Origin: Sphaerobacter sp.
GTDB lineage: Bacteria > Chloroflexota > Chloroflexia > Thermomicrobiales > Thermomicrobiaceae
NCBI RefSeq assembly: GCF_019683595.1
Contig: NZ_JADGHZ010000017.1
Span: 1-37,108, forward strand
Length of the DNA stretch: 37,108 nucleotides
Reading direction: 5' to 3'
This document shows, piece by piece, positions 19,086 to 36,870 of the stretch. Under the pieces are notes generated by a model, which saw only the letters and a program-made list of their open reading frames with translations, did not search any database and had not been told where the DNA came from. Made by a program: the position numbers and the translations under genes. Numbering within the stretch: the first letter of the stretch is position 1; each line of letters opens with the position of its first letter.

Positions 19086-19176
19086 GATCCCCGTCGTCTC
19101 TCACACATTCTTCCACCCAGATCCTATCATATTGCCCCGGTGGCCCGGAGATTCAGTCGTCATTCTAGATGCAACG

Positions 19177-19185
19177 TGGTACAAT
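19177..19185 (+). promoter_or_regulatory. extended -10 promoter of the GGDEF-STAND gene
   Basis: TGG-TACAAT gives an extended -10 (TGn plus a 5-of-6 -10 box) with no good -35 at 16-18 bp, as expected for extended -10 promoters. The start would be near 19192, giving a ~57-nt leader. Confidence 0.5.
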
Positions 19186-19225
19186 GCTGTCACGGTTTGA
19201 CTGAGATGAAGGCGTGCGTGTCGCG

Positions 19226-19246
19226 CTGGACCTCCGGGGAGTCCAG
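19226..19246 (+). promoter_or_regulatory. hairpin overlapping the ribosome binding site
   Basis: CTGGAC (19226-19231) pairs with GTCCAG (19241-19246) around a 9-nt loop. The likely ribosome binding site GGGGAG (19236-19241) lies in the loop and stem, 7 nt before ATG 19249. The structure could limit translation of the diguanylate cyclase. Confidence 0.45.
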
Positions 19247-19248
19247 TG

Positions 19249-21978
19249 ATGCCATCTGTCAGCGACGATCGGGCCAGGCCAGAGGGAACCGACCGGGATC
19301 CGCTGACCGGAGCGGTCTCCCGCGCGTTGCTCGACGACGTCCTGGCGCAGCAGGTTGCGACCTCGCGAGCGACAGGGCGGCCGCTCTCGGTGGCTGTCCT
19401 CGATCTGGACTACTTCAAGAGCGTCAACGATGCCTACGGTCACCTGCGGGGAGACCGTGTCCTCCGGGCGCTGGTTGAACGGCTGCAGGCCGGTATCCGG
19501 AAGACGGATCGGCTGTTCCGCTTCGGTGGGGATGAGTTCGTGCTGGTGCTCCCCGGGACGTCAGCGGAGGAGGCCGCCGCGATCGCATCACGGCTCCTCG
19601 CGTTGGTGGAGACGAAGCCCTTTGGCGGGGATCCGCCGCTGACGCTCAGTCTCTCGCTGGGAATCGCCACCTTCCCCCATGACGCCGAGACGCCGGATGC
19701 ACTGCTCGATGTGGCCGACCGCCGCCGGTTCGGCGCGAAGCGAGCCGGGCGCGGCCGCGCGCTGACGGGGCGGGGAGTGGTGCTGCCCGCCCGCGTGCCC
19801 CGCGCCCTCCTACCGGCGGCAGCGCCCGTTGTATGGAGCGATTCGGATCTGATCGGCCGGGAAACCGAGGTCAACGAGATCCTGGAACGGCTCGGGCGTG
19901 CCCGGCTGCTGACACTGACCGGCCCGGCCGGAATTGGGAAGACGCGGCTGGCGCGGCACATCCTGGCGCTGCTGCGCGGCGCGTTCGCCGACGGGGTCGT
20001 CTACGTGCCGGTCGCACACGTCGTCGAGCCGTCGATGGTGCCGGCTGTCCTCTCCGCGGCGCTGGGGTTCGCCGTCCCGACCGGGCAGAGCGGCCGGGAA
20101 CCGTCGGCCGAGGCGCTGCGAGCGCGCGAGCAACTGGTGGTCATCGACCACTTCGACCGGCTGCGGGACGCCGCACCGTTACTGACGGAGCTCCTGGCTG
20201 CCGCGCCCGGTCTCAAGATCCTGGTCACGTGCCGGCGCCCGCTGCGCCTCTACGGCGAGCATGTCTACCCGGTGCCGCCGCTGGTGGTCGGCGACTCGGA
20301 GGCGGCGCCCGCTGTAGCCCTGTTCCGCGCCCGCGCCCGCTTCCGCTCCGATGATCATCCTCCGGTAGGGGAGGGGGAGGCCGTGGCGGCGCTCTGCGCC
20401 CGGCTGGGCGGGTTGCCACTGGCGATCGAGCTCGCGGCGGCGTGGACGGCACGCTTCCCGGTCGAGCACCTGCTGGCATCGCTGCCGGGTGGCGGCGAGC
20501 CGGGGGAGGAGGTGAGCCCCGGCGACGCGCTCCGCGTCCTGCTTGATTGGAGCTACCGGGAGTTGACCCCTGAGCAGCGGCGGCGCTGGGCTCGGCTGGC
20601 GGTCTTCGCGGGCGGCTGGTCGGTCGAGGCCGCGCGGGCGGTCGTGGAGGCGCCATCCGCGGGGATCGCGGAGGTCGCAGCCGCCCTGGATGCGCTGGCC
20701 GAGGTCGGTTTGATCCGGCCGGTCACCGACGCGGCGCACTCGCCCCGGTTCATCATGCCGCAGGCGATCCGGGAGGAGGCGCTGGCACGGCTGGAGGCGA
20801 CCGGGGAGGCGGACGGGATCCGCAACCGGCACGCGGCGTGGTATCTGGCGCTCGCCGAAATTGCTGCCGCGCAGCACCGTGGCGCGGACCACAAGCGCTG
20901 GCTCGATCGGCTCGACGAGGAGTACGCGAACCTGCGCGCCGGGCTCCGACATGCGCTCACGCAAGGCGACATCAATACTGCCGCGCGACTCGCAGCGGCC
21001 CTGTGGCGCTTCTGGGAGCGCCGCGGCTGGGCGGCCGAGGGTCGGGCCTGGATCGCCGCGATCCTGGAGCACCGGGAGTCGCTCCCACCGGAGGTCGAGG
21101 CGGAGGTGCTCAACGGAGCCGGAGTGCTGGCCTGGTTCCAGGGGGATCTGGCGGAGGCGCGCGACCGGCTGGAAGCCAGCCTGGCGATCTCAACGCGCCT
21201 GGGCGACGCCGCGGCGCTGTCGCGGGATCTGAACAACCTCGGGCTGGTGCTCCGGCAGCAGGGGGACTATGCCGCTGCCGAGGCGCATTTTACCCGCTGC
21301 CTCGAGGTGCAGCGTGCAGCGGAAGATGCCTGGGGGCAGTCGATTACGCTCGGGAATCTCGCCGAGCTGGCGGTGCTGCGCGGCGACGGCCCTGCCGCCC
21401 GCCGGATGGCGGCGGAGTGCCTCGCCATCGCCCGCAATGCGGACGATCAGCGGCTGCGTGCGCTGGCGCTCTGTACGACCGGCGTCGTCCTGCTCGACCA
21501 GGGCGAACCGGAGCGGGCGCGGGCGGCGCTCGACGAGAGCCTGGCACTGGCTGAGAGCCTTGCCGATCCGCGGACGACCGCGCGCTGCCTGACCGGCCTC
21601 GGTGTGGTGGCGCTGATGCAAGGGCGGAGCGCCGCGGCGGCGGACCTGCTCGGCCGCGCGCTGGATCTGTGGTCACAGATCGGGGATCGCCTCGGTCTCT
21701 TGGAGGCCCTCGGCTGCCTCGCCGGGGTGGCCGGTACCGTTGGCGACGTACTGGATGCCGCCAGGCTCTACGGGGCCGTCGAAGCCGTGCACCGGGGAGC
21801 GGGCGCGCCCGGGCCGCTCCTGCTGCGCAGCGCGTTGGCGCGGGTCGAGGCGGGCATCAAGGAGCGAGTCGACCCCGAGGCGTGGTCCACGGCCTGGCGT
21901 GAGGGGCAGTCCCTGACACTGGAGCATGCGCTGGCGGTCGCGCGCACGGTGGCACGCGGGGCCGCGCCGGCTGCTTGA
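19249..21978 (+). CDS. GGDEF diguanylate cyclase fused to STAND NTPase and TPR domains
   Basis: A 909-residue fusion. Residues ~15-170 are a GGDEF domain expected to make c-di-GMP from two GTP: LDLDYFKSVND (metal/substrate site), RFGGDEF with the signature at 93-97, and an RxxD inhibitory I-site (RKTD, ~84-87). Residues ~200-540 are a STAND/NB-ARC-like NTPase: Walker A GPAGIGKTR (~225-233), Walker B LVVIDHFD, sensor-like ILVTCR, GLPLAIELAAA and a winged-helix-like region with LDWSYRELTPEQRR. Residues ~590-850 are TPR-like helical repeats (LNNLGLVLRQQGDYAAAEAHF and relatives). No membrane helix or HTH is seen. ATG 19249 fits GGGGAG. The usual relatives carry a class III nucleotide cyclase in front of this NTPase-TPR unit; here a diguanylate cyclase takes that place. 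A longer paralogue is at 32304-35774. Confidence 0.9.
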   Translation: MPSVSDDRARPEGTDRDPLTGAVSRALLDDVLAQQVATSRATGRPLSVAVLDLDYFKSVNDAYGHLRGDRVLRALVERLQAGIRKTDRLFRFGGDEFVLVLPGTSAEEAAAIASRLLALVETKPFGGDPPLTLSLSLGIATFPHDAETPDALLDVADRRRFGAKRAGRGRALTGRGVVLPARVPRALLPAAAPVVWSDSDLIGRETEVNEILERLGRARLLTLTGPAGIGKTRLARHILALLRGAFADGVVYVPVAHVVEPSMVPAVLSAALGFAVPTGQSGREPSAEALRAREQLVVIDHFDRLRDAAPLLTELLAAAPGLKILVTCRRPLRLYGEHVYPVPPLVVGDSEAAPAVALFRARARFRSDDHPPVGEGEAVAALCARLGGLPLAIELAAAWTARFPVEHLLASLPGGGEPGEEVSPGDALRVLLDWSYRELTPEQRRRWARLAVFAGGWSVEAARAVVEAPSAGIAEVAAALDALAEVGLIRPVTDAAHSPRFIMPQAIREEALARLEATGEADGIRNRHAAWYLALAEIAAAQHRGADHKRWLDRLDEEYANLRAGLRHALTQGDINTAARLAAALWRFWERRGWAAEGRAWIAAILEHRESLPPEVEAEVLNGAGVLAWFQGDLAEARDRLEASLAISTRLGDAAALSRDLNNLGLVLRQQGDYAAAEAHFTRCLEVQRAAEDAWGQSITLGNLAELAVLRGDGPAARRMAAECLAIARNADDQRLRALALCTTGVVLLDQGEPERARAALDESLALAESLADPRTTARCLTGLGVVALMQGRSAAAADLLGRALDLWSQIGDRLGLLEALGCLAGVAGTVGDVLDAARLYGAVEAVHRGAGAPGPLLLRSALARVEAGIKERVDPEAWSTAWREGQSLTLEHALAVARTVARGAAPAA

Positions 21979-23479: not shown

Positions 23480-24835
23480 TCAGGAACGGCTCTCGTAGGC
23501 GATGGCGGCGACCTCGCGGGCCAATTCCATCACGGCCCACTCGTCCTTGGCATCTTCGCTGAGGACGGCCACGATGACCGGCCCGGCCGGGGCGTAGATC
23601 ACCCCGGCGTCGTGGACGATCCCGGGGAGGTTGCCGGTCTTATGCGCCACCCGCGTGCCCGGGGGCAGCAGGACGGGCAGCCGGTCGGTGATCGTCTGTT
23701 GCGCCAGGAGGTCGAGCATCTCCTGGCTCGCCTCGGGACTGACGACCGCGCCGTCGAGGAGGAGGTGGAACAGCCGAGCCATGTCGGCCGGCGTGGTGAC
23801 GTTGTATGCCGAGTCGGCATCGGCGAGCTGCGGCGGCGCCGGGATCGGACCGGGAGCCAGGGCGGCGAGCCGTGGCGTCGATGGGGTGCGTCCGGCTCGG
23901 GGTCGTGCGCTGGCGAGGTTGCTCGTCGCATCCAACGGATCGACCGATCCCCGGGACCCATCCTCGGCCGGCTCATCGGACTGGTCATCGGGCGGGATTG
24001 GCTCGGCCGTCGGCATGTTGTCCGGCTCCGTGGAGCTTACACCGGGGGGCGAGGGGGTGTCTCGCTGCGATTCCGGCGCAGGTGTCGGCTCCGGTGTCGA
24101 TTCCGGCTCCGGCTTCGGAGGCGAGACATAACCTGGACGCCAGCGGATTTCGGTGTGCACCAGACCCAGATCCGCCATCGTGGCGTTGACGGCCTCGTTT
24201 CCGACCCGATCCAGGAGGGCGTGCGCGGCGACGTTGCTGCTGACCGCGATCATGGCCCACAGGAGGTCGTCGATCGGGACGGCCGTCCCGATGGCGTCGT
24301 AGACATCCGCGCCCTCTTCGAAGTAGGCGGGCAGGAGGGTAATCGTCTCGTCGAACGAGAGCCAGCCAGCTTCCCGCTGCCGATAGAGCTCGACCATGAT
24401 TCCCAGCTTGTAGAGGCTGGCCGCTTCAAAGAGGCGGTCCGGCTGGTGCTCGTAGAGCCGCGTGCCGTCCGGCAGCGCGACTACGATGCCCACCTCGGCC
24501 GGGATGTCCGCCACCAGCGGGTCGATGCGCTCGGCCAGCGAGCCGGCCAGGTGTTCGTGCGGAGATTCCGGTTGTGGGGTGGGCGTCGAGGGCGGGGTCG
24601 GCGTCGGCTGGGGTGTCTGCTCCGCCTGTGGCGTCGGTGTCGGCGCTGCCTCCCTCGTGGCTACGACGGGCGGCGGGATCGGCGAGCTCCCGATCTCCGT
24701 TCCCGGCCCCTGCGTGGGGATTCCCCGTGCGGAGATGGCGAGACCGCCCACCGACAGGAGTAACGTGCCACCGAGCAGCAAGCGCAGGCGCCGCCCACGC
24801 GAACGAGCCCACCGCTGGTTATCCACTCGAGGCAT
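23480..24835 (-). CDS. serine hydrolase of the class A beta-lactamase fold with Pro-rich insertion
   Basis: A 451-residue exported protein. A basic start and one hydrophobic helix (~18-35) form a signal or anchor, then a Thr/Pro-rich linker (~60-92) leads to the catalytic domain. Active-site motifs are S140-x-x-K143 (ASLYK), S199-S200-N201 (SxN) and K399-T400-G401 (HKTG). In class A enzymes the omega loop carries Glu166 and Asn170; the matching segment, IRWRPGYV, has Arg and Val there. Immediately after it (~237-340) is a ~100-residue Pro/Ser/Glu-rich insertion. The protein likely acylates but may not hydrolyse beta-lactams efficiently; a cell-wall DD-peptidase or other role is possible. ATG 24835 begins the signal peptide. 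It is divergent from the ABC export genes. Confidence 0.82.
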   Translation of the reverse strand: MPRVDNQRWARSRGRRLRLLLGGTLLLSVGGLAISARGIPTQGPGTEIGSSPIPPPVVATREAAPTPTPQAEQTPQPTPTPPSTPTPQPESPHEHLAGSLAERIDPLVADIPAEVGIVVALPDGTRLYEHQPDRLFEAASLYKLGIMVELYRQREAGWLSFDETITLLPAYFEEGADVYDAIGTAVPIDDLLWAMIAVSSNVAAHALLDRVGNEAVNATMADLGLVHTEIRWRPGYVSPPKPEPESTPEPTPAPESQRDTPSPPGVSSTEPDNMPTAEPIPPDDQSDEPAEDGSRGSVDPLDATSNLASARPRAGRTPSTPRLAALAPGPIPAPPQLADADSAYNVTTPADMARLFHLLLDGAVVSPEASQEMLDLLAQQTITDRLPVLLPPGTRVAHKTGNLPGIVHDAGVIYAPAGPVIVAVLSEDAKDEWAVMELAREVAAIAYESRS

Positions 24836-31030: not shown

Positions 31031-31059
31031 TTGCGTGCGTCCAACCCCCTGCGTATACT
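31031..31059 (+). promoter_or_regulatory. promoter of the tyrosine recombinase gene
   Basis: TTGCGT (31031-31036) and TATACT (31054-31059) are exactly 17 bp apart. The start would be near 31066, so coding cannot begin at the in-frame TTG at 31031. A perfect 10-bp palindrome TGTACGTACA (31068-31077) lies right at the transcript start and could be an operator. Confidence 0.7.
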
Positions 31060-31117
31060 CGGCATGGTGTACGTACATATGGCGCCGATGCCCACCGGCC
31101 AACCGGGAGCAGGACCG

Positions 31118-32125
31118 ATGACGAACGGGGCGGCCCCGACGATCGCCGACGCCATCGAGGACTTCTTCGACAACCTGCGGCTGTCGCCGCGGAGCAAGAA
31201 GACCTACCGCACCGCGGTGACGAAGTTCACCGAGCACCTGAAGGAGCGGTTTGATCTGGACCCGGCCACAAGCCCGGTCACGGCGCTCACCGAGGACCAT
31301 GTCACCGACTTCGTCGCCGCGCTGATGCCGGATGACGTCCGCTCGCCGGAAGAGGTGTCGCGCATGCGCACGGCGCAGACCAACCTGGCCGCCGTGCGGA
31401 AGCTGTACGCCTACCTCGTCTCCTACGACCTGCACCCAAACCTCTCGACTGAGAAACTGCGCACGCGGGTGGCGGCGATGATGCCGCGCTTCACCCCGCC
31501 GCCGCCCGATGTCCAGACCAACGACCTGGACCGCATCGTGGAGTACGTGCGCACGCTGCCGCATGAGGTCGATCCCGACAAGGAACTACGCCGGCTCAAG
31601 CTGCGCGCGATGATCCTCTTCCTCTATCGCACCGGCGTGCGGGTGTCGGAGCTGTGCGGCTTGCGTCGCCGGGATATTCAGTTGGCCGACGGCACGGCCA
31701 GCATCTACCGCGCGAAAGGGGGCAAGAGCCGCACCGTCCTCTTCGACAGCGAGACGGCCGAGGCGCTGGTGGCCTACTGGGCGGCGCGCGGCGACAGCGG
31801 CCGCGGCGTCGGGGCCTTCCCCGCCTTCAGCGGGCGGGACAAGGTCGGCGTCCCTGGGCGTGCCATCAGTCCACGCACGGTCGAGCACATCGTGGCGCAG
31901 CTCTGCGTCGCGGCGGGGGTGGAGAACCCGATCACGCCGCACTCGTTCCGTCACGGGCTGGCGACCGAGCTGGTGCGCCGCCGAGTGCGTGAGTCGACCG
32001 TGCAGACGATCCTCGGACACGCCTCGCCGACGACCACCCGCATCTACGTCCACAAGGTGGCGGCTGAGGTGGCTGAAGAGTATCAAGAAGCCTTCGGTCC
32101 GTACCGCCGGCCGCTCGGAGCATAG
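31118..32125 (+). CDS. XerC/XerD-like tyrosine recombinase
   Basis: A 335-residue site-specific recombinase. The N-terminal SAM-like DNA-binding domain spans ~10-105 (TIADAIEDFFDNLRLSPRSKKTYRTAVTKF). The catalytic domain keeps every key residue: Arg175 in TGVRVSELCGL, Lys200/203 in AKGGKSRTV, His275 and Arg278 in HSFRHG, His301 in LGHASPTTT and the nucleophile Tyr310 in RIYVH. ATG 31118, behind GGGAGCAGG, fits best; several earlier in-frame ATGs lie close to the transcript start. No phage, transposon or cassette genes surround it, so it may be a chromosome-dimer or orphan recombinase rather than a mobile-element integrase. It is followed 178 nt later by the second GGDEF-STAND gene. Confidence 0.9.
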   Translation: MTNGAAPTIADAIEDFFDNLRLSPRSKKTYRTAVTKFTEHLKERFDLDPATSPVTALTEDHVTDFVAALMPDDVRSPEEVSRMRTAQTNLAAVRKLYAYLVSYDLHPNLSTEKLRTRVAAMMPRFTPPPPDVQTNDLDRIVEYVRTLPHEVDPDKELRRLKLRAMILFLYRTGVRVSELCGLRRRDIQLADGTASIYRAKGGKSRTVLFDSETAEALVAYWAARGDSGRGVGAFPAFSGRDKVGVPGRAISPRTVEHIVAQLCVAAGVENPITPHSFRHGLATELVRRRVRESTVQTILGHASPTTTRIYVHKVAAEVAEEYQEAFGPYRRPLGA

Positions 32126-32303
32126 CCGCAGTCCCAATCAGCCCGCCATCAGTACCCCTACGGCATGAGACTACCGACTAGACACATCATTGCTGATGGG
32201 GGATAGCCCACGGTGGCGGCATCCCGTACAGTGCAAGCAGAGACGGAAGGGTATGGGTCCCCGTATCTGCGGGTCCGACCCGTGACGAGAGTGCAGGCAC
32301 GTG

Positions 32304-35300
32304 ATGTCGTCGATGCCGTCATCCCTTGACGTGCGGCACTGGCCCCGCGACCCACTCACCGGTGCGCTGTCCCGGGCATACCTCGATGACGCACTCCAGG
32401 CGACGCTCGACGCGGCGCGGCGGGAACGTCGCCGGGTGACGCTCTGCCTCCTCGATGTGGATCACTTCAAGAGCATCAATGATGCCTACGGCCACCGTCG
32501 CGGCGATGAGGCGTTGCGGGAGGTCGCCCGCCGCATCCAGCGCGAGATCCGCAGCAGTGACCTCATGATCCGGTACGGCGGGGACGAGTTCGTCCTCATC
32601 CTCCCGGACCTGACACGCTCGCAGTCCGTCGCGCTGGCGGAGCGCCTGCTCGCGCGGGTGCAAGCGACGCCATGCCCGGGCGTGCCGCCACTGCGCCTGT
32701 CGATCAGCGTGGGCGTCGCGACCTTCCCAGACGATGCGGACACGGCGGAGGCGTTGATCGAGCGCGCCGACCAGCGGCACGCCCAGGCCAAACGGCAGGG
32801 GCGCCGTTGCGTGGTCGGCGAGGACGTCGCCGTGGTGGACCCGGGCAGACTGCCGGAACCCGCCCGCCTGATCGAACGCGATACCGAGCTGGCGGCAATC
32901 CATGCGTTTCTGGCACGGCTCCCCGCGGCCAGGCGCGGGGCGCTGCTGATCACCGGGGCGCCCGGTACGGGGCGCTCGCGCCTGCTCGTCGCCGCGGTCG
33001 AAGCGGCGTTGCAGCAGGGCTACGCCATCCTCCCGCTCGAATCCCGGGAACCGGTGTCGCTCGCGCCGGGCCCGGGACGCCTGACCGTCTCGTGGCAGGA
33101 GCTTGCATCGCTGCCGGGCGACGGGGCAGAGGCACGGCTGCGACACCTCGCGGCCGCGGCCGGATGCCACGGGCTCCTCATCGTCTTCGATGGCTGGGAG
33201 GACCTCAACCCGGCTGCCCGCTCCTGGGTCGAGCGGGTGCTGGCCGGGGCGGGATCTATGCCGATCGGGGTGATGGTGACGGCTGGGGAGAATCCCTCCG
33301 TCCCGGTCGCGCCGTTCGTCGCTCGTGTGGTCGTGAATGCGCTCTCGCAGGAAGCGACGCGTGTCTGGGTGCGCGGCACGCTGCTGTGGGATCCGCCTGC
33401 GGACTTCGTCGTCTGGCTCCATCGCACCACTCAGGGGCGACCTGCCGAGATCCGAGCCACGCTTGACCGGCTGGTCGAGCAGGGAATGCTGCGCAGGGAG
33501 TCGCGCAACGGCTGGCGCCTTGCCGATGGCTATGCCGGGGTCATCCGCGATGGTGGGACGGCGCCGCTGGTGCAGCAGCATCCCCACAACCTCCCGGCGG
33601 CCTTGACCGAGTTCGTCGGCCGTACGGCCGAGGTGGCCCAGGCCCGGAGCCTCATCCTGGAGCACCGCCTGGTGACGCTCACCGGGCCGGGGGGCATTGG
33701 GAAGACGCGGTTGGCGCTCGAGGTCGCGGCCGCGGTGCGCGCGCACTTCCCCGACGGCGTCTGGTTCGTCCCGCTCGCGCCGATTCATGACACCCGGCTT
33801 GTGCCCGATGCGATCCTCGCCGCGCTCGGCGAGCAGCAGACTCCGGGCGAGACGGCGCTCGATTACCTGAAGGAGAAGCTCCAGGAAGCTCGCATGCTCC
33901 TGGTGCTGGACAACCTGGAGCAGCTTGCCGATGCGCCGGCGCTGGTCGCCGACCTGCTGGCGGCCTCGCGCCACCTGCGCGTCCTGGTCACCTCCCGTCA
34001 CCGGCTCACCCTGCCGGAGGAGGTGGTGTTCTCCGTTCCCCCGCTGCCGGTCCCGCGGTCGCGTGAGGGATGGTCGGCCGCAACGCTGACCGACTTCGCG
34101 GCCACGGCGCTGTTCGTGGCCCGCGCGCAGGCGGTGCGCCCCGACTTCCGGGTCACCGACGCAAACGCTGCCGACATCGCGGCCCTCTGCGCCCGGCTGG
34201 ACGGCCTGCCGCTGGCGATCGAGCTGGCCGCGGCGCGGGTGGATGAGTTCTCCCCCCGCGACCTGCTGGCCCAGATGCACCGGCGGCTGGCGTTTCTGGA
34301 CGACGGCCCGCGCGACCTCCCTGCCCGCCAGCGGACCCTCCGCGGCGCGATCGACTGGGGCTACCGCCTCCTGTCGCCCACGGAGCAGCGGCTCTTCCGG
34401 CGGCTCGCCGTCTTCGTGGGCGGCGCGACGCTGGAGGCGATCTCCGTCATCGTTGCTGGTGCTCCGAGCTACGGCGGCTCGGAGCAGTCGCCCCTGGCTG
34501 CTGTGGTGCGCTCCCTGCGCGACAAGAGCCTGCTGCTCACCGTGGGGGAGGGTCGCGTCGGGATGTTGGAGACGATCCGGGAGTACGCCCTGGAGCAGCT
34601 TGCGGCCAGCGGCGAGGAGGCGACGGTCCGTGACCGCCACGCGGCGTACATGCTGGATCTGGTAGAGCGATCCCAACCATACCTCCGAGGGTCCGACCAG
34701 ATGCGCTGGCGGCGCCGGCTGGAGGCGGAGCGCGACAACATCCGCGCGGCTATGGCGTGGCTAATCGGACAGCGCGACATGGAGCGGGCGGGTCGACTTG
34801 CCGCGGCGCTGTGGATCTACTGGGACAGCGTCGGGCGGACCGCTGAACTGCACCGCTGGTTGACGGCGGTGATCCAGGAGCGCGAGCGGCTCTCGGACCC
34901 GGTGCTCGCCGCTGTGCTACACACGCTCGGGTCCATCAACTGGATGCTGGGGAATTCGGACGACGCCGAGTCCTGCTTCACGGCGGCCCTGCAACTCTGG
35001 CGACGGTTGGGCAACCGCGAGCGGGAAGCCGCGGCGCTCAACAACCTCGGCCTCGTCGCCGGGGGGCGCGGCGAATATGACCGGGCCGAGGACTACTTCC
35101 ATGCCAGCCTTGCCATGACGCGTGAGACGGGCGATGCCTGGGCGGTGGCGATTACGCTCTCCAACCTGGGCTGGGTGGCCCTCGAACGTGGAGAGGTCGG
35201 TGAGGCAATCGACCGCCTGACCGAGGCGCTGGCGGCCCAGGAGGCGGCCGGTGACCGGAGCGGGCTCGCGCTCACGATGGCGAACCTGGGGGTGGCGACG

Positions 35301-35774
35301 CTGCAGCGTGGCGACTATGCGGCGGCGGCGCAGCACTTCGAGCAGAGCTGGGCGCTGGCGCACGAGTCCCGGGACGAGCGCACGGCGGTGCTGACGCTGG
35401 CGCGCCGGGCACTGCTGGCCCTGATCCAGGGCGATCTGGAAGCCAGCCGCCGCGACTGCTTCGAAGCGATCGCGCGCTGGCAGGAACTCGGCTACAAGGC
35501 GGACATGGTTGAGGGACTCCAGGTTCTGGCCGGGGTGGCCGCGGCGCAGCGGCGGCCCGATGTCGCTGCCCGCCTGCTCGGCGCCGTGGCGGCGGTTCGT
35601 GCCGCCACGCGCTCCCTCGGAGCCGCCTCCCTCCATCCCGAGTTCCGTCGCCTCATCGAGTCCGCCCGCGCCAGCCTATCCCCAGCCGCCTGGCAGGCCG
35701 CCTGGCAAGCCGGCCAGACCGTGGCCCTGCCCCAGCTCATCGATGATGTGCAGCGCGAGTTGGGGCAGGAGTGA
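32304..35774 (+). CDS. GGDEF diguanylate cyclase fused to tandem STAND NTPase modules and TPR domains
   Basis: An 1156-residue paralogue of the protein at 19249-21978. Residues ~15-172 are GGDEF: LLDVDHFKSIND, RSSD as the I-site and RYGGDEF (signature 92-96). A first NTPase module (~185-420) has a degenerate Walker A GAPGTGRSR (~218-226, Arg for the usual Lys) and Walker B LLIVFDGWED (~291-300). A second, canonical module (~430-780) has FVGRTAEV, Walker A GPGGIGKTR (~461-469), Walker B LLVLDNLEQ (~532-540), LVTSRHRL and GLPLAIELAAARVDEF, then the winged-helix-like LRGAIDWGYRLLSPTEQRLFRRL. TPR-like repeats (LNNLGLVAGGRGEYDRAEDYF and relatives) fill ~850-1110. There is no membrane helix, HTH or EAL domain. 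ATG 32304 follows a weak GCAGG. A repeat element starts 4 nt after the stop. Confidence 0.9.
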   Translation: MSSMPSSLDVRHWPRDPLTGALSRAYLDDALQATLDAARRERRRVTLCLLDVDHFKSINDAYGHRRGDEALREVARRIQREIRSSDLMIRYGGDEFVLILPDLTRSQSVALAERLLARVQATPCPGVPPLRLSISVGVATFPDDADTAEALIERADQRHAQAKRQGRRCVVGEDVAVVDPGRLPEPARLIERDTELAAIHAFLARLPAARRGALLITGAPGTGRSRLLVAAVEAALQQGYAILPLESREPVSLAPGPGRLTVSWQELASLPGDGAEARLRHLAAAAGCHGLLIVFDGWEDLNPAARSWVERVLAGAGSMPIGVMVTAGENPSVPVAPFVARVVVNALSQEATRVWVRGTLLWDPPADFVVWLHRTTQGRPAEIRATLDRLVEQGMLRRESRNGWRLADGYAGVIRDGGTAPLVQQHPHNLPAALTEFVGRTAEVAQARSLILEHRLVTLTGPGGIGKTRLALEVAAAVRAHFPDGVWFVPLAPIHDTRLVPDAILAALGEQQTPGETALDYLKEKLQEARMLLVLDNLEQLADAPALVADLLAASRHLRVLVTSRHRLTLPEEVVFSVPPLPVPRSREGWSAATLTDFAATALFVARAQAVRPDFRVTDANAADIAALCARLDGLPLAIELAAARVDEFSPRDLLAQMHRRLAFLDDGPRDLPARQRTLRGAIDWGYRLLSPTEQRLFRRLAVFVGGATLEAISVIVAGAPSYGGSEQSPLAAVVRSLRDKSLLLTVGEGRVGMLETIREYALEQLAASGEEATVRDRHAAYMLDLVERSQPYLRGSDQMRWRRRLEAERDNIRAAMAWLIGQRDMERAGRLAAALWIYWDSVGRTAELHRWLTAVIQERERLSDPVLAAVLHTLGSINWMLGNSDDAESCFTAALQLWRRLGNREREAAALNNLGLVAGGRGEYDRAEDYFHASLAMTRETGDAWAVAITLSNLGWVALERGEVGEAIDRLTEALAAQEAAGDRSGLALTMANLGVATLQRGDYAAAAQHFEQSWALAHESRDERTAVLTLARRALLALIQGDLEASRRDCFEAIARWQELGYKADMVEGLQVLAGVAAAQRRPDVAARLLGAVAAVRAATRSLGAASLHPEFRRLIESARASLSPAAWQAAWQAGQTVALPQLIDDVQRELGQE

Positions 35775-35778
35775 GGCG

Positions 35779-35903
35779 AGATGCGTCATGCGTCATGCGT
35801 CATGCGTCAACCGTCCCCCTCACCCCCGGCCCCTCTCCCAACCTTGGGAGAGGGGAGAAAGACGAAACACGCATCACGTGTGACGCATGACGTATGACGC
35901 GTG
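35779..35903. repeat. ATGCGTC-heptamer inverted-repeat element, copy 2
   Basis: The left arm has four tandem ATGCGTC units (35781-35808); the right arm TGACGCATGACGTATGACGC (35881-35900) matches copy 1. The core is shared with 15470-15590 and holds a perfect 12-bp hairpin, CCCCTCTCCCAA/TTGGGAGAGGGG (35830-35841 with 35844-35855). As with copy 1, it begins just after a stop codon. Confidence 0.75.
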
Positions 35904-35910
35904 AATCTCC

Positions 35911-36870
35911 CTACTCCACCGCCAGGTCGTTGACGATCTCGCGGGCGGCGTGGAGCCACTGTTCGTCGGTGTCGTCCGGCACGGAGCAGCCGTTGGCCAG
36001 GATGAACTTGCGCCCGCCGGTCTGGCGGATGGCGTCCTCGGCCTCCTCACGGATCTTCTCCACCGGCCCATTCGAGAGCGCGCCGAACTCGTGCCAGCCG
36101 CCCATCAGGCACTTGCTGGTCTTGGTGCGGGCCTCGCGCAGGCTCGGCCCGGCCATCCGGTCGCTCCAACTCAGCACCTGGACCGGATAGTCGAGCACGT
36201 CGTCGAAGAACAGGTCGCGCTCGCCGTGCACGTGGAGCACATTCAGCCAGCCGTCGATGGCGCCCTGCAGGGCCAGGAGGTCGTAGGGGCGGCCCACCTC
36301 ACGGTAGAGCTCGCGGCTCATGATGGCGCTGGTGCAGCCCTGCAGCGCGAAGAAGACGCCGTCGGCACCGGCGTCGATGCAGTCCTGGATGTGGGCGCGC
36401 AGGTTCTGGGCGAAGGTCGCCAGCGCCTGGTGGACGAAGGTCGGGTGCTCATGCAGGTGCCGCAGGAATAGTTCGCGCGATTCCGCGGCGTACATCGCCT
36501 CCGCCAGGGGGCTGAAGACCGTCATGATGATCGGCACATCGAAGCCGACCATGTCGCGGAGCGCGCGGATGGCCATGGCGCGCTGGGTGAAGTAGCGCGA
36601 GCGCTCCTGGTCGATCGGCTCGATCAGCAGCCAGTCATCCGGCTTGGTGACCGAGCGGCGCGGGAAGGGGTAGGGGATATCCGGCATGATCTTGAGGATG
36701 TCGAGGTCGAAGGTAGCTTCGAAGAAGTTGAAGGTGGCCTCGGCCAGCCGGCGCCCGGACCCCTCGGGGCGGAAGTGGTGCCAGAAACAGACGGGGACGC
36801 GGTCAACCTCGTCGCCGTTGACGGCGGCCATGACGCGCTCGGTCTTGGTCATCTCATCGACGAATGACAT
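35911..36870 (-). CDS. uroporphyrinogen decarboxylase (UroD) family protein
   Basis: A 319-residue TIM-barrel protein of the UroD superfamily, which includes heme-pathway decarboxylases and corrinoid methyltransferases such as MtaA. Seen are MTKTERVMAAVNGDEVDRVPVCFW at the start, VPIIMTVFSPLAEAMY, GADGVFFALQGC, LNVLHVHGERD and a C-terminal GGRKFILANGCSVPDDTDEQWLHAAREIV. The divergent N-terminus and LHVHG plus NGC elements fit the methyltransferase-like or unassigned branch better than true HemE. ATG 36870 has GGGAG 7 nt upstream. A possible -10 TAAGAT lies at 36998-36993 and a GTCCACC palindrome at 37027-37042. No corrinoid protein or hem gene adjoins it, so the reaction is unknown. Confidence 0.85.
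   Translation of the reverse strand: MSFVDEMTKTERVMAAVNGDEVDRVPVCFWHHFRPEGSGRRLAEATFNFFEATFDLDILKIMPDIPYPFPRRSVTKPDDWLLIEPIDQERSRYFTQRAMAIRALRDMVGFDVPIIMTVFSPLAEAMYAAESRELFLRHLHEHPTFVHQALATFAQNLRAHIQDCIDAGADGVFFALQGCTSAIMSRELYREVGRPYDLLALQGAIDGWLNVLHVHGERDLFFDDVLDYPVQVLSWSDRMAGPSLREARTKTSKCLMGGWHEFGALSNGPVEKIREEAEDAIRQTGGRKFILANGCSVPDDTDEQWLHAAREIVNDLAVE

Follow-up and report, generated by a model that had tools for sequence, protein, structure and literature searches.

The window analysed here, a 37,108-nucleotide stretch of a Sphaerobacter sp. contig, carries two genes, q1 and q2, whose products join an N-terminal GGDEF (diguanylate cyclase) domain to NTPase and TPR modules in a single chain (Table 1). 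By analogy with known STAND proteins, we consider it rather probable that both are soluble STAND-regulated diguanylate cyclases switched by multimerisation. The first gene was singled out by an earlier sequence-only reading of the window; q2, the second GGDEF-NTPase-TPR gene, was absent from its list.

Domain content and predicted fold

Counted from the GTG codon at 19246, q1 encodes 910 amino acids (909 from the ATG at 19249, where the sequence-only reading had placed the start), and no earlier ATG, GTG or TTG start is available, since a TGA at 19207 closes the frame upstream. The promoter candidate ahead of the gene, a consensus match only, was observed once against a mean of 0.1 in shuffled sequences.

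Table 1. Coordinates of q1, q2 and their parts in the window
Feature	Position	Strand	Basis or remark
q1 sigma-70-like promoter candidate, TCGTCA-17-TACAAT, extended TG	19157..19185	+	consensus match only
Gene q1, 910-aa GGDEF-STAND NTPase-TPR protein	19246..21978	+	alternative ATG start 19249
q1 GGDEF (diguanylate cyclase) domain, residues 16-170	19291..19755	+	PF00990 3.3e-37, motifs, VIA
q1 I-site RKTD	19498-19509	+	motif
q1 GGDEF motif	19525-19539	+	motif
q1 flexible linker (predicted), residues 173-199	19762..19842	+	residues 183-196 pLDDT < 50; dN/dS 0.81
q1 STAND NTPase and winged-helix unit (NOD), residues about 200-520	19843..20805	+	AAA_16/NB-ARC/NACHT, AfsR, MalT, Apaf-1, PH0952
q1 Walker A GPAGIGKT	19921-19944	+	motif
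q1 arm/TPR superhelix, residues about 570-888, putative sensor	20953..21909	+	TPR_12; helical-hairpin repeats in model
Gene q2, 1157 aa, GGDEF - degenerate NTPase1 - NTPase2 - TPR	32301..35774	+	
q2 GGDEF domain, residues 16-169	32346..32807	+	PF00990 2.4e-42; VIA Z 26.4 to 3ign
q2 NTPase1 (pseudo-NTPase), residues about 189-425	32865..33575	+	AAA_16 match 189-310
q2 NTPase1 degenerate Walker A GAPGTGRS	32955-32978	+	
q2 NTPase2, residues 455-568, Walker A GPGGIGKT	33663..34004	+	AAA_22 5e-10, NB-ARC 1e-8
q2 TPR region, residues about 869-1100	34905..35600	+	TPR_12 3e-30

The GGDEF domain of q1 contains DPLTGxxSR at residue 18, DLDYFK..ND..GH..GD at residue 53, the I-site at residues 85-88, five residues ahead of the GGDEF signature (94-98), and AKRAGR at residue 164. 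Motif reading found the GG[DE]EF signature, the metal- and guanine-binding residues and an RxxD I-site, i.e., all the GTP-, metal- and I-site-binding residues expected. In an alignment of the N-terminal parts of nine members (q2, its orthologue and seven proteins from two other Chloroflexota groups, q1 not being included) nearly all these residues were invariant, the Arg and Asp of the I-site in 9/9.

The NTPase of q1 has its Walker A motif at residue 226, a Walker B-like LVVID at 297 and GLPLA at 389; its Walker B segment reads DHFD, as against the DNxE common among relatives, and therefore ATP hydrolysis may be weak. In Pfam, AAA_16 (residues 202-271, E 3e-7) fell 1 bit short of the cut-off, NB-ARC (206-397, E 1e-3) was under it, and NACHT and nSTAND matches within residues 200-400 were each slightly below it. 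Several TPR families matched the C-terminal part, TPR_12 at 619-690 and elsewhere with a best E of 7e-30, and TPR_MalT below the cut-off; in NCBIfam the NTPase-TPR part matched HaaT, FxSxx TPR proteins and AfsR. The identity of the NTPase is settled despite the sub-cut-off Pfam scores, because three other comparisons agree: full-length AfsR (8k60) matched residues 189-708 (phmmer, E 8e-10), the best Foldseek match of the q1 model was PH0952 (6mfv), a TPR-sensor STAND protein (E 1.6e-12), and VIA superimposed MalT (8bob_C) on residues 195-612 (Z 25.4, rmsd 4.0 over 353 residues) and Apaf-1 (3shf) on residues 187-667 (Z 24.4, rmsd 5.9 over 427 residues). Walker A, Walker B, a GLPL-type motif, a winged helix and C-terminal TPRs, by which STAND proteins are recognised, were all found. 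Solved GGDEF domains matched the N-terminal part with VIA Z up to 26.5.

The AlphaFold model of q1 (48 sequences in the input) has a mean pLDDT of 90.7 and a pTM of 0.78, with only residues 1-13 and 183-196 below pLDDT 50; the placement of the GGDEF domain relative to the NTPase is not reliable in it, and the GGDEF domain bears no stalk helix. No membrane segment is indicated, since the highest 19-residue hydropathy is only 1.67. Domain scans of q1 and q2 matched neither HTH, BTAD nor GerE families, nor did they find a second effector domain besides GGDEF. Taken together, the domain matches and the model support the assignment of q1 to soluble proteins of AfsR/MalT STAND kinship with an N-terminal GGDEF domain. 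The sequence-only reading had described just this architecture, with an intact GGDEF signature, metal site and RxxD I-site, an NB-ARC/STAND-like NTPase of the AfsR/MalT-like superfamily and TPRs, and with neither HTH nor membrane sensor, and on all these points it is borne out.

The additional NTPase1 of q2 lacks the Walker A lysine. The same lysine is lost in the homologues from genomes G148 and G442 (GEAGCGQT, GKKGVGHT and GAKASGYA) and retained in L104 (GLPNSGKS), L108 (GEAGVGKT) and L168 (GGEGTGKT), so the extra domain is, by its motifs, a pseudo-NTPase in most members. It is missing in q1; as the other clade members carry it, its loss along the q1 lineage is the simpler reading. The AlphaFold model of q2 covers residues 1-483 only (pLDDT 78.5, pTM 0.50), and a structure search with its pseudo-NTPase model returned a match list filled by GGDEF. 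A recent duplication giving rise to the two genes is not supported: in the trees their GGDEF domains fall into different weakly supported groups and their NTPases do not pair.

Conservation, distribution and origin of the family

An orthologue of q1 in genome G001 shares 83% identity with it across 902 residues, in a single frame and at full length, and that of q2 is 88% identical. The dN/dS values between the q1 orthologues were 0.22 for GGDEF, 0.81 for the linker, 0.24 for the NTPase and 0.25 for the TPR part; those for q2 were 0.11 (GGDEF), 0.19 (NTPase1), 0.21 (NTPase2) and 0.11 (TPR). By this measure every domain of q1 is under purifying selection and the linker drifts; the pseudo-NTPase of q2 is likewise maintained by purifying selection. 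The in-frame orthologue and the dN/dS of 0.22-0.25 exclude chance as the source of the q1 frame; a frame or assembly artefact is ruled out by the full-length copy in an independent genome, and a pseudogene or relic domain by dN/dS of 0.11-0.25 across all domains.

In G002, a third species of the genus, the gene order is retained and both genes are missing: the interval separating the metal-chaperone-like gene from the BrkB gene measures 634 bases, and that separating the integrase-like gene from the URO-D-like gene 44 bases. At the q2 site, homology with G002 ends at window position 32121 and restarts at 35922. Each gene being cleanly missing from this synteny, q1 and q2 represent separate single-gene gains or losses. 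No copies were seen elsewhere in the G002 genome, which is 91% complete.

Directly 5' of q2 lies a tyrosine recombinase-like gene (window 31031-32125; Phage_integrase 4e-34), kept in 3/3 genomes of the genus, even in that without q2. Just 3' of q2, at 35774-35905, there is a repeat made up of ATGCGTCA units, a palindrome of 26 bases (35830-35855) and TGACGCATGACG. The core of the palindrome is matched about 120 times per strand in the source genome, about 91 times in G001 and 70 times in G002, the reversed control giving no match; the repeat is described here as REP- or MITE-like.

A survey of Chloroflexota (roughly 600 different genomes) revealed GGDEF-NTPase fusions in G000 and G001 (at least two each), in G148 and G474 (at least three each) and in G442 (at least one, with a frame that ends early); the counts are lower bounds, because only the best candidates per genome were scored. 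Among the matches listed, fusions also occur in MAGs assigned to Anaerolineales (L104, L106), Actinomycetes (L105) and Deinococcota (L107); an Aminicenantes MAG (L168) and WOR-3 (L108, at a contig end) have GGDEF + AAA_16 proteins. Taxonomic assignments of the MAGs can be wrong. The rare architecture singled out by the sequence-only reading is therefore not a one-off fusion: its members occur in several lineages and form a small family with two to three copies per genome. In all of them no more than about 40 residues precede the GGDEF domain. The signature is altered in two homologues, to AGDEF in G148b and GGDEL in G148c, so not every member need be active.

In the GGDEF tree, 15/17 fusions cluster with L023/L024 (SH-aLRT 82), L108 and L168 falling outside. 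L023 and L024, the top GGDEF matches, were rejected as fusions, being cNMP-binding + GGDEF proteins. The GGDEF-linked NTPases all fall to the same side of a branch (86/89). As most of the GGDEF domains group together and the NTPases share a branch side, the GGDEF-STAND-TPR fusion probably goes back to one or a few events, albeit at weak support.

Effectors are interchangeable on one NTPase-TPR chassis

Ten relatives of the NTPase-TPR part were scanned for further domains. An N-terminal class III cyclase is carried by 2/10, a TIR domain by 1/10 and an HTH domain by 2/10; a LuxR domain at the C-terminus was found in 2/10, and 3/10 have no recognised effector. The nearest relatives thus carry the DNA-binding domains and class III cyclases that the sequence-only reading had named as familiar partners, and TIR as well. 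In L004 the cyclase occupies residues 6-158 and the NTPase aligns from residue 189; in q1 the corresponding figures are 16-170 and 186, hence GGDEF occupies the effector position. Judging from these arrangements, effectors are interchangeable on one NTPase-TPR chassis. A TIR-NTPase-TPR protein (L005:555-3467), close to the q1 chassis and with its domains in the same order, is a possible NLR-like receptor.

The class III cyclase-NTPase-TPR proteins (L004, L010), a kind to which mammalian soluble adenylyl cyclase also belongs, correspond to q1 position for position, with a nucleotide-messenger synthase at the N-terminus of the chassis; class III cyclases, however, make cyclic mononucleotides, whereas GGDEF domains yield a cyclic dinucleotide and differ in how they pair. 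Mycobacterial cyclase-LuxR proteins likewise have the synthase placed N-terminal to an NTPase-TPR chassis (PMC3466318). AfsR and the large SARP regulators of Streptomyces (8k60, 8jke) share with q1 the order of N-terminal effector (one that acts, or in q1 would act, as a dimer), STAND NTPase, winged helix/arm and TPR, but their effector is a DNA-binding SARP domain, and q1 has no SARP. MalT and PH0952, TPR-sensor STAND ATPases, have the NOD-arm-TPR fold in common with q1; the effector of MalT is a C-terminal LuxR-type DNA-binding domain. That of PH0952 is an N-terminal ArsR-like DNA-binding domain (PMC6468293). Apaf-1 is a STAND protein with a WD40 sensor in place of the TPR sensor of q1.

GGDEF has been joined to such modules before. 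The source genome itself encodes a 1773-aa Ser/Thr kinase-AAA_16-TPR-GAF-GGDEF protein (L073:5982-11300), with an orthologue in G001, which holds NTPase, TPR and GGDEF in a single chain as q1 does, and a 1826-aa kinase-TPR-GGDEF protein of Clostridium thermocellum, with TPR and GGDEF in a single chain, was reported in 2005 (PMC1262709). In both, GGDEF is C-terminal (in L073 behind GAF domains, with an N-terminal kinase ahead of the NTPase), unlike the N-terminal GGDEF of q1; q1 and q2 do not belong to the kinase-GAF-GGDEF family, having neither Pkinase nor GAF, both present in L073. The sequence-only reading did not name a c-di-GMP synthase among the familiar partners of NTPase-TPR units. Given these precedents, the mere combination of GGDEF with AAA_16 and TPR is no novelty; the N-terminal GGDEF-STAND-TPR arrangement, like its pseudo-NTPase version, was not found in the open literature searched (subscription papers lie mostly outside it).

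With the canonical diguanylate cyclases (PleD, WspR, DgcB, SiaD) q1 shares the GGDEF fold and residues (VIA Z 23-26). In those enzymes the regulatory domain is N-terminal and coupled through a stalk or coiled coil; in q1, in contrast, regulation would have to act from the C-terminal side via a flexible linker. Degenerate GGDEF domains are known c-di-GMP receptors, and the domain could be read as an input, c-di-GMP or GTP at the I-site or active site controlling a STAND hub that recruits a partner. The I-site invariant in the nine aligned members and present in q1, the ability of STAND hubs to work by partner recruitment, and the single effector domain found in q1 and q2 agree with such a role. 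We nevertheless consider it unlikely, as receptor-type GGDEF domains usually lose catalytic residues that are intact in q1 and q2, and relatives carry an output, an enzyme or a DNA-binding domain, at the GGDEF position.

Proposed switching mechanism and cellular setting

For q1 and q2 as STAND-regulated synthases, we infer catalysis, nucleotide exchange, oligomerisation, ligand binding and coupling to GGDEF dimerisation by analogy with AfsR, MalT and PH0952. The N-terminal effector of AfsR, which functions as a side-by-side dimer, is inhibited by the NTPase and TPR parts, an inhibition lifted by ATP (PMC10936776); MalT and PH0952 rest as monomers in which contacts between sensor and NOD hold the closed state, and inducer together with ATP causes head-to-tail multimerisation of MalT (PMC6468293). 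At rest, the NTPase-winged-helix unit of q1 and q2 would accordingly be closed on ADP, with the TPR sensor keeping the protein monomeric. Binding of a ligand or partner to the TPR array would open the unit and allow ATP to replace ADP, upon which the ATP-bound protomers would multimerise head to tail. The multimer would concentrate the GGDEF domains, tethered by flexible linkers of about 15-25 residues, so that they could pair into the active two-half-site dimer joining two GTP into c-di-GMP, and the conserved I-site would provide product inhibition of the synthesis. The sequence-only reading had already suggested c-di-GMP production gated by ligand-driven NTPase oligomerisation, which AfsR, MalT and PH0952 make plausible. 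Since the q1 linker is predicted to be flexible, coupling would proceed by proximity and not through a rigid stalk as in the usual diguanylate cyclases; the fit depends on linker freedom, because GGDEF needs a two-fold pair and STAND assemblies are head-to-tail. In q2 the pseudo-NTPase between GGDEF and the active NTPase, missing in q1, would probably serve as a scaffold or regulatory spacer. More tentatively, the family may represent cytosolic wheel-type c-di-GMP synthases, in which the GGDEF domains of neighbouring protomers pair only in ligand-induced STAND multimers and the pseudo-NTPase is a built-in regulator in most members.

On its own, with no partner to bring about dimerisation, a GGDEF domain usually shows weak activity, which speaks against a constitutive or passively attached synthase in which the NTPase-TPR part governs no more than localisation or partner binding, with no gating. 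This reading draws on the flexible and freely evolving linker, the start of GGDEF near the N-terminus in all members and the modelled domain without a stalk helix; we regard it as improbable, the NTPase being kept (dN/dS 0.24) and the equivalent part of AfsR inhibiting its effector (PMC10936776).

The genus also possesses the other components of a c-di-GMP system: its three genomes encode 9, 9 and 6 GGDEF domains, and each has one PilZ and three EAL matches, two of them full length, so synthesis, degradation and sensing of c-di-GMP probably all take place in the genus. A scan of genes around q1, q2 and the G148, G474, L105, L106 and L107 copies recognised no operon partner, PilZ or conserved functional neighbour, and the window has no Rfam match. 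A beta-lactamase-fold protein adjoining the BrkB gene (23480-24835; Beta-lactamase2 1e-49) is only 69% conserved in G001, compared with 83-97% for most neighbours. In both genomes of another genus (L051:3184-10028, L097:1755-8677), a glpX fructose-bisphosphatase gene is followed directly by two GGDEF-NTPase genes in tandem. In PADLOC a generic TPR model alone was clearly matched, the mad8 and TRIP13 matches being weak and local to the NTPase; this result, the mostly housekeeping or unrelated flanking genes examined, the resemblance of c-di-GMP to a house messenger in the genus and the lack of unusually fast change in the orthologues (dN/dS 0.11-0.25 per domain) make an anti-phage or conflict STAND receptor of the Avs or TIR-STAND-TPR style, with an effector making cyclic dinucleotides, very improbable, in spite of the closely related TIR-NTPase-TPR protein L005, the clean presence or absence of q1 and q2 between species as single genes and the reported, though rare, occurrence of GGDEF among the domains of NTP-dependent conflict systems (PMC7159879).

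In most of the diguanylate cyclases studied, control is exerted from the N-terminal side by way of a stalk. Wheel-type synthases, if they exist as outlined, would be switched in a way distinct from such stalk-coupled sensors and would be the c-di-GMP counterpart of the cyclase-NTPase-TPR proteins. Control of a diguanylate cyclase by a STAND unit would connect c-di-GMP with the assembly logic that AfsR, MalT and NLR proteins follow; it would also demonstrate that one NTPase-TPR chassis can exchange GGDEF, class III cyclase, TIR and DNA-binding outputs for one another. Compact, soluble and from a probably thermophilic genus, q1 would be a convenient test of STAND assembly driving a paired-half-site enzyme.
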